From Halarcobacter anaerophilus (lineage in GTDB: Bacteria; Campylobacterota; Campylobacteria; Campylobacterales; Arcobacteraceae), in the NCBI RefSeq assembly GCF_006459125.1, contig NZ_CP041070.1, forward strand, positions 1,550,001-1,614,000: a stretch of 64,000 nt of DNA, given 5' to 3'. The notes beneath the pieces were generated by a model that ran no database searches, was not told the origin of the DNA, and worked only from the letters and a program-made list of their open reading frames with translations. The stretch's first letter is position 1. Every line of letters starts with the position of its first letter. The position numbers and the translations under genes are program-made. Positions 18,821 to 23,561 of the stretch are shown here, piece after piece.

Positions 18821-19303
18821 ATGAATAAGTTTTATTCACTTTTTTTCATCTTTTTTTCAATATTTTTTACAGCTTGTAACCCAACAACTTCATTAGAACA
18901 TTTTTCAAATAATCCTGTAGATGCCTATTCGGTTCAATATACAAAAAAAAGGGATATTCTTTTTAATAAAGAGCTAAAAGCAATGCTTTTTGCTACATAT
19001 TTGAATAAAATTTCAACTAAATATAATACAAATGAAGTTTACAGTTTTGTTATCGGTGTTCAATATGTCAATAATGAAGATGATGAACTAATAAAAAGCG
19101 TTACTTTAAACGGGAAAAAGCCTTTAAGTTTTATTAACTTAAAAAAAGAATCAAAACTTCTAAAAAACATTTCATTAAAAAATAATTGGGCGAAGTATTA
19201 TTTAGTAGATTTTACAAAAGATAAAGATGATGAGTCAAATAAATTAAATTTAGACTTCTCTCACTCTACTTGGGGTAAAGCTCTTATAAGTTTTCCCAAA
19301 TAG
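18821..19303 (+). CDS. Putative outer-membrane lipoprotein
   Basis: This 160-residue protein has a signal peptide ending in lipobox FTAC (Cys19) and a mature domain of mixed beta/alpha with many Lys and Asn. GGGAG precedes the ATG. It overlaps the convergent slt gene by 20 bases. Campylobacter carries an unknown ORF in the same mobB-slt interval. Role unknown; envelope location is inferred from the lipobox. Confidence 0.7.
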   Translation: MNKFYSLFFIFFSIFFTACNPTTSLEHFSNNPVDAYSVQYTKKRDILFNKELKAMLFATYLNKISTKYNTNEVYSFVIGVQYVNNEDDELIKSVTLNGKKPLSFINLKKESKLLKNISLKNNWAKYYLVDFTKDKDDESNKLNLDFSHSTWGKALISFPK

Positions 19304-20717
19304 TATTTAACTCTAATCTCTCTTTAGACTTTTTATCTAATTTATTATAAGCCAAGGTATACCATAAAAGGTAATTTTCATTTCCTTCTAAAAGGGGAAA
19401 TAATTTAATATAAGAAGTTAACAAATCATCCTTTTTTATAGCACTAAGAGCAGTTATTTGATCTAAATTTTTAACTTCTTTATTGTATTTAAACAAGATT
19501 GACAAAAGATTATTATTTGTTTCTATATTTAATCTTTCTAGATATGCTTTTGCATAAGTCAAACTATCTTCCATATTAAAAAAAGAGTTAAAATTATACT
19601 CTTTTGAAAGATCTTTTATCCAAACAGGTTTTAGCTGCATAATACCGACTTTTAAATCTTTTGATACTTTATCTAACTCAAGATTTGATTGGCTTTTTGC
19701 TATTGCGTAGAGCAGGGCGATAGTTTTTGAATTTGAAGATTTTAGTATTGTTTTAAATTCATTTAAAGAATCAATTTTAAAATCTTTACTTATTTTGTTT
19801 CCTAAAAGTTCATTTGCATAATATGAATAAAAATTAAAATTTTCGCTTGAAGAGAGAAGTTTTAAGATAGATTCATCTTTTGTTATTAAATACTCTAAAA
19901 AGTCTACTTTATCAATAAACTTTTTATTAGAGCTTTTCTTTTTTGCATTTTCCAAATAGTTATAAGCTTTATTGAAATCTTTAAATCTTATAGCATTTAT
20001 AGCCAAATAAAAAGAGGATTTGTACCCTAACTCTTTATCATCAAGACCGTTTAGGTTTTTATTTAAATTAGTAAGTTTGTTATTGCTTAGAACAAGTTTT
20101 AAGAACTCTTCAAACTTTTTTTTATTTTTATATATTTTTTCAAATGTTCTTTTAGGTAATTTATAATTAAAATATTTTTCTCTAAAAGAAGAATCAACAT
20201 TTAAAAATATATCATAAAAATTGGATTTATCTTGCACAATTAGCCTTGTAAAAGGTATAGCTGAAGAGATTACTTTAATTTTTTTCGTAAAAGCAGGGTA
20301 TTTGTCTTTAGTTTTTTGAATAATTATATTTAGATCAAAAGAGGATAATAAAGATGCCTTTTTTAAACTTAAGCCATTTACTATACAATCGGCATAAGAA
20401 TCAACCAAGTCGCTGTTTTTCATATTCATACATTGGGCAACGGCAAAAGTTTCATCATGACCGAACTTTGATGCAAAATTATAAAAAAGTTCATTGTTTA
20501 TATTGTAAATTAAATTTAATGCTTCATAAGCTTGATCATTTGAAATATTATTTTTTTTCAAATACTCGTTTATAAAAAAATCTCTTTTTATATTTTTAGG
20601 TAAAGTCTTTAGATAATCAAGAGTTAAAGAAGAAGTTTGTAGAGTCTGAATATTTTCTTCTATCTCATTTGCATAAAAAGAAGCAGCCAAGCAAAGAGAC
20701 AGAAGAATCTTTTTCAT
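19284..20717 (-). CDS. slt: Slt-type lytic transglycosylase homologue with Glu to Gln at the catalytic position
   Basis: A 477-residue periplasmic protein: signal peptide (1-17), a long alpha-helical superhelix (about 25-325) and a C-terminal SLT domain. The domain keeps VGIMQLKPVW (358-367) and later conserved residues. However, the catalytic segment, normally A-x-x-R-Q-E-S, reads AIAKSQSN. Position 343 is therefore Gln (codon CAA at 19689-19691) instead of the acid Glu. Unless another residue substitutes, it should not cleave peptidoglycan and may only bind it. The frame is intact and the place in the mobB-slt-yggT-gltX order is conserved with Campylobacter. Confidence 0.8.
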   Translation of the reverse strand: MKKILLSLCLAASFYANEIEENIQTLQTSSLTLDYLKTLPKNIKRDFFINEYLKKNNISNDQAYEALNLIYNINNELFYNFASKFGHDETFAVAQCMNMKNSDLVDSYADCIVNGLSLKKASLLSSFDLNIIIQKTKDKYPAFTKKIKVISSAIPFTRLIVQDKSNFYDIFLNVDSSFREKYFNYKLPKRTFEKIYKNKKKFEEFLKLVLSNNKLTNLNKNLNGLDDKELGYKSSFYLAINAIRFKDFNKAYNYLENAKKKSSNKKFIDKVDFLEYLITKDESILKLLSSSENFNFYSYYANELLGNKISKDFKIDSLNEFKTILKSSNSKTIALLYAIAKSQSNLELDKVSKDLKVGIMQLKPVWIKDLSKEYNFNSFFNMEDSLTYAKAYLERLNIETNNNLLSILFKYNKEVKNLDQITALSAIKKDDLLTSYIKLFPLLEGNENYLLWYTLAYNKLDKKSKERLELNTIWENL

Positions 20718-20720
20718 TTT

Positions 20721-20999
20721 TTACATTCCCATAAAAAGTCTTCCTAAAAAAGTCTCTAGGAAAATCAAAACAAAAATAACAATAATCGGCGCTAAATCCA
20801 TTCCTCCTACTACTGTTGGAATAAATCTTCTAACCAAAGCGTATGCAGGTTCAGTTAACCTATACAGCATTTGGACAATTGGATTATAAGGATCAGGTCT
20901 GACCCAACTTAAAAGTGCAGAAATAATAATAACCCATTTGTATAAAGAAATTATTGTTAAAATAACCGTAAAAACTGAGCCTAAAAGTGCATCCATCAT
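20721..20999 (-). CDS. YggT family membrane protein
   Basis: This 92-residue protein has two membrane segments (about 8-28 and 65-88) separated by the conserved [23 protein letters not shown] (split: [11 protein letters not shown] at 28-38, then RLTEP), diagnostic of YggT/Ycf19 proteins. These are linked to cell envelope, osmotic response or division-site functions in other bacteria. It overlaps gltX by four bases and lies three bases from slt. Confidence 0.88.
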
Positions 21000-22261
21000 T
21001 TTGTAATCTCTCCTAAATAATTTTTAATCAAAGGATATATCTCTAAAAGCTCAGGTCCTTTATTTTCTCCTGTTAAGATATATCTAAAAGGGATTGAAAA
21101 ATTTTCACCTTTTAACCCTGTTTTTTCTATAACATACTCTTTTAATTCATTATAATTCTCGTAAAAAGGAGCTTCTTTCATACATGATTTAATCTTTGTA
21201 AACTCTTTTTCAAAGCCTTTACAAGTTGTTTTTTTATTAAAAATTGAATCTATTTTTGATTTTATTTCTTTTATAGTATCTGCTTCTTTTAAGAAAAGTT
21301 TTCCTAATTCTCCGATATCAGTATCTGCAAATCCTAAAATTTTTGATAATCTCATTTCATCAATTTTTTCTAAATGCTTTTTATTTATAAATTTTAATTT
21401 ATCTATGTCAAACTTTACGGAATTTTGTGATATATTTTTTATATCAAACCACTCTACGGCTTCTTCTAAAGTAAAAATTTCTTTTGGAGTTTTATTTCCA
21501 AGAAGAACTAAATAGTTTGCAATAGCACTTGGTAAAAATCCTTCATCTATAAGCATTTTTACAGGAATTTCATTTAAAATACCCGGTAAATGTATATATT
21601 CTATCTTTTTATTATAATTTAAAGAGTCTCTTACATGAATTTGCTTGGGAGTATTTGACAAATACTTCTCTTCTCTAAGTACAACAGAGATATCATAAAG
21701 CATATCATCAATAGCACAGGCATAATCATATGTAGGAGTTTTATCATGATTTAAAATAATAAAAGAGTCTACTTCAAAAGGTTTAAATGTAAACTCACCT
21801 TTTAACAAGTCTGTAAAAGTAACTGCTTCTTTTGGTTTTTTTAACCTTACAGTAAAGGGTGCATTGCAGTTTAAAACTGTTTCATCAGATAAATTTTCAC
21901 AGAATCCGTCATATCTAAAAGGTTTTCCTTCTTTTTCTAACTCTTCTTTTATCTCTTCAAGTTTTGCATCGGAACAAAAACAGGCAAAAGCTTTTTTCTC
22001 ATTCATTAATTGCATTGCAAGTTTTTGATAATATTTTAAATTTCCGCTTTGGTTAACAACTTGAGCATACTCAATCGAAAAAAGATTTAAAAGCTCTAAA
22101 ATCTCTTTCTCTTTGTCTTCACTATTTTTTTGACTATTGGTATCTTCAATTTTTATTAATAACTTTTCGTTTAACTGTTTTGATAATATATAATTAAATA
22201 TTGCAACTCTTAAGTTGCCAATATTCATCTCTTGTGTAGAACTTGGTGCAAATCTCAACAC
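20996..22261 (-). CDS. gltX: Glutamyl-tRNA synthetase paralogue lacking all class I ATP-site motifs
   Basis: A 421-residue protein with the fold and N-terminus of GluRS2 ([18 protein letters not shown]). HIGH is NIGN (13-16). The RGEDH block is REEKY (196-200). The whole KMSKR loop is missing: HLPGILNE (224-231) jumps straight to [13 protein letters not shown], about 14 residues short of the H. pylori GluRS2 layout as I know it. The frame is unbroken and the anticodon-binding half persists. Charging activity looks lost; tRNA binding or a new role is possible. GTG 22261 matches the family N-terminus and follows GGAG. It is cotranscribed with yggT and slt. Confidence 0.85.
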
Positions 22262-22265
22262 CTTT

Positions 22266-23561
22266 TTATCTCCTTACTATTGAAAAAGACAATTTATTTA
22301 TCTCTTTATGAGATTTTATATAATTATTTAAATCTTCTAATTTAAGAGATTCTATCTTTTCCAACTCTTTTTTATTGTAATCTTGAGGTAAGCCTCTGTA
22401 AAATAGAGTAAAGGCTCTATTTAATCTTTGAGAAAGTGTTTCTGTTCTAAGAGGTTCACTTCCTAATAGAAATTTTTTGGCAGAATCTAATTCCTCTTTT
22501 GTAACTCCGTTTTTAACAAACTCTTCTACTAAAGTTTCAACTAAAGATTTTGCTTCATCGGCGCTTTCTAATTTAGTTTGTAAATATCCTGTAAAATAAG
22601 AGTATGTTTTATTCATAGAAATATATCCGTAAGCAGAATACGCCAATCCTCTTTTTACTCTTATCTCTTCCATCAACCTTGAACCGAAACCGCTTCCTCC
22701 AAGAATAAACGAAGCAACTTTTGCCATATAAACATTTTGATCTTTTACATCTATATTAAAAGGGCTTCCAAAATAGATATAAGCTTGTTGTGTATCTTTT
22801 TTTATCTCTTTTATTTGCGTTTGGGATACCGTTTTAATCTCTTTTGAAGAGTTTTTTGAATCTGCATTTAATACTTTTAGACTTTTTTTGATTTTTGAAA
22901 TAATTTCATCATATTCAAAATCTCCACCTACTACTATAATAAGATTATTTATGTCTAAAGCATTTGTTAAAAACTTTTTTACATCACTTAAATTTATTTT
23001 AGAAAGAGACTCCTCTGTACCTAAAGATGGATTTTCCAAGGCACTATCTTTAAAAAGTATTTTTTTTAGATTTTGAGAAGCTATATAATCGTAATCATTT
23101 TCTTTTCTTTTTAAAGAACCTTTTTGCAAAGTTTTGATTTTTTCCAAAACTTTTTTATCATAATTTGGATCTTTTAATAAATCTTTTAATAAAACCAATG
23201 CTTTTTCATGAACATCTTTTAAAGAAGAGAGTTCTATAACAAAAGTTTCAAAACCTATATTAGATTGTAAAGAGATTGCAGAATTTTCAAGTTTTTCGGC
23301 AAATCTAGTACTTCCTATTTTTTTTGTTCCTTCATTTAAAAGTTTTGCACTAATTGAAGCAAGTCCGCTGTTTTTGTTATCTTGGATATATCCCGAGTTT
23401 GCAAAAACTAACTGTAGATTTAAAATAGGAAGAGATTTATCCTGTTCAAATACGACAGGAACATCAATGCCTTTTATATTTATATGCTTTATAGTAGCAC
23501 CCATCATTATTCCTTGTAAAAATAAAAATAAAATTATTAATTTTGAAATCCTCTTTTTCAT
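22266..23561 (-). CDS. M16 peptidase-like protein, non-catalytic subunit type
   Basis: A 431-residue exported protein with a signal peptide (1-22) and two M16 half-domains. The zinc motif HxxEH is absent; the same place reads [14 protein letters not shown] (67-80). The R/Y substrate motif of M16B partners is kept (RGLAYSAYG, near 305-313). Such proteins usually pair with an HxxEH subunit, which is not adjacent here. It probably serves as the substrate-binding half of a periplasmic protease. The gap to gltX is four bases. Confidence 0.82.

Follow-up and report, generated by a model that had tools for sequence, protein, structure and literature searches.

A glutamyl-tRNA synthetase, GluRS2, without its active-site motifs in Campylobacterales that encode GlnRS, and its probable retention in a non-catalytic role

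In Campylobacterota that lack GlnRS, GluRS2 puts glutamate onto tRNA-Gln and so supplies the substrate for GatCAB. This tRNA-Gln-specific enzyme, of the H. pylori type, is the closest described relative of the protein considered here, with which it has in common its orthology, the gene order gltX2-yggT-slt, a zinc motif and the fold. The present protein differs from it in being without HIGN, RGEDH and KMSKR, in having lost basic charge and in residing together with a GlnRS. Pseudo-synthetases are a kind already known, and HisZ and other synthetase-like pseudoenzymes likewise have the synthetase fold, are without catalysis and are under selection, HisZ being a regulatory subunit of another enzyme (PMC9437257). 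What distinguishes the present case from the HisZ type is that an active GluRS2 orthologue survives in sister species and that the decay is recurrent. The sole GluRS paralogue in the table of the same review is GluQ-RS (YadB) (PMC9437257). It is also related to GluRS, with the common catalytic fold and a zinc motif, but it is active and has no anticodon-binding half, unlike the full-length protein described here.

The GlnRS-YqeY of Deinococcus-Thermus and Campylobacterota is related in another way, as a functional replacement whose tail is GatB-like and whose gene is separate from gltX2. GluRS2 and GlnRS were found together in 6 of 10 epsilonproteobacteria, where GlnRS was suggested to be non-functional; GlnRS was present in Arcobacter nitrofigilis and not in A. 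butzleri (PMC3927822). The zinc-binding domain of bacterial GluRS has been proposed to contact GatB (PMC4381286). The papers searched contained no report of a damaged GluRS2 in this phylum, nor of a dead GluRS2 that is recurrently created and still constrained.

The gltX2 frame and its neighbours

The window, by which is meant the whole stretch of 64,000 nucleotides analysed, carries the following features.

19284..20717, minus strand: slt-like gene, next in the conserved order
20721..20999, minus strand: yggT, which overlaps the gltX2 stop by 4 bases and is beside gltX2 in nearly all genomes examined
20996..22261, minus strand: gltX2 (GluRS2) orthologue of 421 residues with three active-site motifs lost (HMM, motif reading, AlphaFold2)
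about 21569..21574, minus strand: junction of the GKKMSKRD loop deletion, residues 230/231 (alignment to intact relatives)
21662..21676, minus strand: REEKY replacing RGEDH, residues 196-200 (motif reading)
21887..21982, minus strand: putative zinc-binding domain, residues 94-125, CxCx20Yx3C (C94, C96, Y117 and C121 kept)
22214..22225, minus strand: NIGN replacing HIGN, the class I HIGH motif, residues 13-16 (motif reading)
22266..23561, minus strand: M16-type peptidase gene, upstream, a conserved neighbour in Arcobacteraceae

The gltX2 frame is free of stops through its 421 codons and begins with GTG (22259-22261), upstream of which is an AAGGAG stretch. (Among Arcobacteraceae, 56 of 57 dead gltX2 copies have TTG or GTG as start codon, and intact copies are half TTG, 21/42, and half ATG.) Its product scores 337 bits against the full-length model gltX_bact/TIGR00464, above the curated cut-off of 289.95, and 134 bits against the GluQ-RS model TIGR03838, where the cut-off is 276.7; the fold is that of a full-length GluRS. 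None of the three motifs of an active GluRS, HIGH, RGEDH and KMSKR, is present, and with the KMSKR loop gone the protein is 12 residues shorter than intact relatives. HIGN is invariant or nearly so in relatives that lack GlnRS. The product is predicted to aminoacylate neither tRNA-Glu nor tRNA-Gln, and 'dead' below denotes a GluRS2 that has lost motifs known to be necessary for catalysis, as judged from sequence. The HMM score leads to annotation as a glutamate-tRNA ligase, which is probably a misnomer for this protein and for its counterparts in over 100 related genomes.

Identity of the product is 55-71% to orthologues in the genus, 44-47% to the GluRS2 of Helicobacter species and 33% to the GluRS1 of its own genome, which identifies it as a GluRS2 orthologue. 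The gene order M16 peptidase-gltX2-yggT-slt is conserved and contains the gltX2-yggT-slt order of Campylobacterota GluRS2; the 4-base overlap with yggT is kept in dead as well as intact genomes. The AlphaFold2 model (mean pLDDT 91.7) has the GluRS fold, and its nearest PDB GluRS structures along its length are 2cfo and 1j09, with a TM score of about 0.84-0.85. (For the Thermotoga enzymes, the names GluRS1 and GluRS2 in the PDB titles, 2o5r/3afh, are opposite to those in a table of PMC4381286.)

The preliminary description, made from the window alone, was accurate as to the loss of the three motifs and their positions, the open frame, the keeping of the anticodon-binding half and operon place, and descent from the Campylobacterota GluRS2. 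It was right to place the protein in the GluRS family, though as a paralogue where orthologue of GluRS2 is meant, and it counted RGEDH, a GluRS motif, among residues common to every class I synthetase. It had also allowed for a sequencing deletion at about 21560-21580. Such an error is excluded because an open gltX2 orthologue with damaged motifs, nearly always at all three, is present in 16 of the 16 genomes of the genus, and because the KMSKR deletion varies in length between species.

GlnRS and the state of GluRS2

The genome of the window encodes a full-length GlnRS-YqeY (G000:C1:2011505-2013070) with HIGH and VMSKR intact, the latter being of the type present in nearly all sampled full-length GlnRS copies; its tail is a YqeY domain, which is GatB-like. 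It had been supposed earlier that decoding had moved to another GluRS. The only other GluRS in the genome is an intact GluRS1 (L002), which leaves no third GluRS to do the job. Since damage to GluRS2 in relatives follows the presence of GlnRS with very few exceptions, it is to GlnRS, and not to another GluRS, that decoding moved.

The association is close. Among the 59 Arcobacteraceae genomes in which GlnRS passes the cut-off and gltX2 can be read, KMSKR is lost in 57; the two that keep it, G058 and G062, both read RGEDQ. Where GlnRS is absent from the family, all motifs are kept in 38 of 39 full-length GluRS2 copies, the sole exception being G076, a 74%-complete MAG with a dead GluRS2 in which no GlnRS was found (absences in general are only as reliable as the assemblies, whose completeness varies). 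Across Campylobacterales, GlnRS scores above its cut-off in 136 of 399 genomes. In families other than Arcobacteraceae, 57 of the 60 genomes with GlnRS and a clear gltX2 have no canonical KMSKR, some of these 57 having motifs that are otherwise near-intact and others being down to 381-396 residues; without GlnRS, GluRS2 is intact in 30/30. Genomes reached through separately fetched loci, several of which duplicate counted genomes, fit the rule in 20 of 21 cases, the miss being L046. Altogether the genomes where GlnRS is present and yet the GluRS2 motifs are intact are G058, G062, G454, G224, G309 and L046. On a tree of the flanking genes, built by quick search, the dead state accompanies GlnRS in 7 of the 8 independent pairs, and no pair shows the opposite (p about 0.016). 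There is a mirror case: a decayed GlnRS with 15 stops (G060:C171:7988-9214, L231) in a genome whose GluRS2 is intact. Another decayed GlnRS copy, with 20 in-frame stops, is at G071:C290:7543-8937.

In genomes with both enzymes, the motif evidence points to GluRS2, not GlnRS, as the one inactivated, which inverts the reading in PMC3927822.

The GlnRS tree is discordant with the genera, congeners falling in separate clusters with other families, though many of its forks are weakly supported. G019, which has an intact GluRS2 and no GlnRS, and G038/G039, which have GlnRS and a dead GluRS2, are 94% identical in their flanking proteins and 87-88% identical in gltX2 DNA, as similar as to GlnRS-lacking relatives. 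With sisters so alike at gltX2 and its flanks, the simplest reading is repeated transfer of GlnRS followed by parallel decay of GluRS2 in place. The same similarity fits descent in place and argues against a general explanation in which glnS arrived together with a gltX2 that was already dead. Such joint transfer may have occurred in other families where the two genes adjoin. In four families glnS is within about 4 kb of a dead gltX2, in 26/29, 14/20, 12/30 and 5/55 genomes respectively, the two genes being tandem, divergent or convergent. (In family f20 glnS and the dead gltX2 are mostly in tandem with few bases between, in f16 they are head-to-head, and other orders occur in f6 and f1; G122 (L168) and G220 (L154) are examples from f20 and f16.) In the genome of the window itself the two genes are not close together.

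Selection on the dead gene

By a simple counting method, pairs of closely related dead copies give a dN/dS of about 0.10-0.33 and intact ones 0.04-0.12; for dead copies in other families it is 0.13-0.32. In a neutral simulation, which ignores selection from translational coupling, 0 open frames were left at 0.2 substitutions per site. These divergence estimates, a calculation the preliminary description had proposed, show the dead gene to be still under purifying selection; with its catalytic motifs lost and its frame free of stops it is a pseudoenzyme in the usual sense.

Constraint is unevenly distributed. The ratio of omega in dead to that in intact copies is about 5 at residues 1-45, 166-215, 216-250 and 251-300, and the C-terminal residues 386-433 are relaxed about 3-fold. 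Relaxation was undetected at residues 46-93, in the zinc-binding domain 94-125 (ratio 1.07, bootstrap interval 0.46-2.51) and at 301-345 (ratio 1.25), the bootstrap intervals for such unrelaxed regions being wide. The motif CxCx20Yx3C, which probably binds zinc, is kept in 57/57 dead Arcobacteraceae GluRS2 and in 43/57 dead copies elsewhere. It is absent from GluRS1 in 14 of the 14 loci read, and since the active-site motifs of that enzyme are intact, the zinc motif is not needed merely to fold a GluRS.

Other features have changed in a consistent direction. Dead GluRS2 proteins lose the otherwise invariant basic residues R45, R116, R171, the KMSKR lysines, K386 and R405 (numbering of the intact enzyme). 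Net charge per 100 residues goes from -1.1 in intact to -3.2 in dead copies, a drop that neighbouring proteins do not show; the acidic shift recurs in four comparisons between sisters and, beyond the family, goes from -0.3 to -3.9. Retention in dead copies is 0.91 for hydrophobic residues and 0.65 for K/R. Because basic residues and positive charge are lost, it would appear that dead GluRS2 no longer binds tRNA productively. Of the earlier suggestion that the protein may bind tRNA or act as a regulator, the first part is thereby disfavoured and a non-catalytic role stays likely.

Possible roles of the dead enzyme

Of 104 Arcobacteraceae genomes, 101 have a GatB that exceeds the cut-off and none has AsnRS, so GatCAB is needed for Asn. 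Among GlnRS-bearing genomes GatB was matched in 80/80 (78 over the cut-off), GluRS2 being lost or not, which rules out loss of GatCAB together with GluRS2. (A GatB match with an apparent stop inside it, L066, the one copy read, is not damaged: the match overruns the true stop.)

The reading preferred here, to which we give a probability of about three in four, is that GlnRS replaced GluRS2 and that the dead GluRS2 is kept for a non-catalytic, protein-binding role. A horizontally acquired GlnRS with its GatB-like YqeY tail would have taken over synthesis of Gln-tRNA-Gln, and as a consequence of that takeover GluRS2 would have lost ATP activation, in many lineages in parallel. The protein would then persist through protein-protein contacts of its zinc-binding domain and the helices at 301-345. 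Of all this the sequences themselves show the concurrence of dead GluRS2 with GlnRS, the parallel decay in many lineages, the scattering of GlnRS by transfer and the purifying selection on the dead protein.

The main competitor is that the gene is a decaying relic, held open only through its translational coupling to yggT and slt, and that what constraint remains merely keeps the product from misfolding. The yggT overlap, conserved whether GluRS2 is dead or intact, would suit this, as would the weak starts of nearly all dead copies, the better retention of hydrophobic residues, and shortening or loss of gltX2 in some lineages. Coupling alone, however, predicts a dN/dS near 1, far from the values found, and intact copies, too, often start with TTG. 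The zinc site and 301-345 are constrained as in active enzymes, although GluRS1 manages without that site, and the neutral simulation, its neglect of coupling notwithstanding, left no frame open. A relic is judged unlikely.

It is more improbable that dead GluRS2 still binds tRNA-Gln, or tRNA in general, as a chaperone or regulator. The predicted fold is kept, including the anticodon-binding half, and glnS adjoins gltX2 in three families; against this are the lost invariant basic residues, the acidic shift, repeated between sisters and outside the family, and the relaxed C-terminal region. Hardly credible is a rebuilt active site that still aminoacylates, or an acquired GlnRS that is itself the non-functional enzyme (as in PMC3927822). 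Though every tested member of Arcobacteraceae with GlnRS also has GluRS2, and GlnRS is patchy, HIGH, RGEDH and KMSKR are lost jointly and in differing ways, the GlnRS motifs are intact, and the either/or pattern would be left unexplained.

If a protein-binding role is accepted, the most likely partners are GatB, retained for Asn, or the GatB-like YqeY tail of GlnRS, a choice more weakly founded than the role itself. Docking on one of these is favoured, indirectly, by the proposal in PMC4381286, the unrelaxed zinc domain, the keeping of GatB, the likeness of the tail to GatB and the proximity of glnS in several families. The stronger form of the idea, that dead GluRS2 is a dedicated non-catalytic subunit of the Gln/Asn tRNA machinery, its zinc domain docking on the YqeY tail or GatB and so reusing an old transamidosome contact, is offered tentatively and is rather doubtful.

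Were this stronger form true, a pseudo-synthetase would have arisen repeatedly and in parallel through one and the same replacement of genes. Sister species in which GluRS2 is active, newly dead, reduced in length or gone constitute a natural replicated experiment, which could separate a non-catalytic function of a synthetase from its catalysis.

A profile search of 48 GlnRS-bearing genomes gave further shortened gltX2 frames of 299-396 residues and about 15 genomes without any gltX2. Because these 15 or so have both GlnRS and GatB, the role cannot be essential to GatCAB or GlnRS, and because gltX2 has been shortened or lost in certain lineages, it is dispensable in the long term. The shortening takes more than one form: dead GluRS2 frames of about 300 residues lack the C-terminal part (G242:C1:1961761-1962564 and G360:C9:161255-162058), and those of about 380 residues in G179, G191 and G333 are missing large stretches of the N-terminal half.
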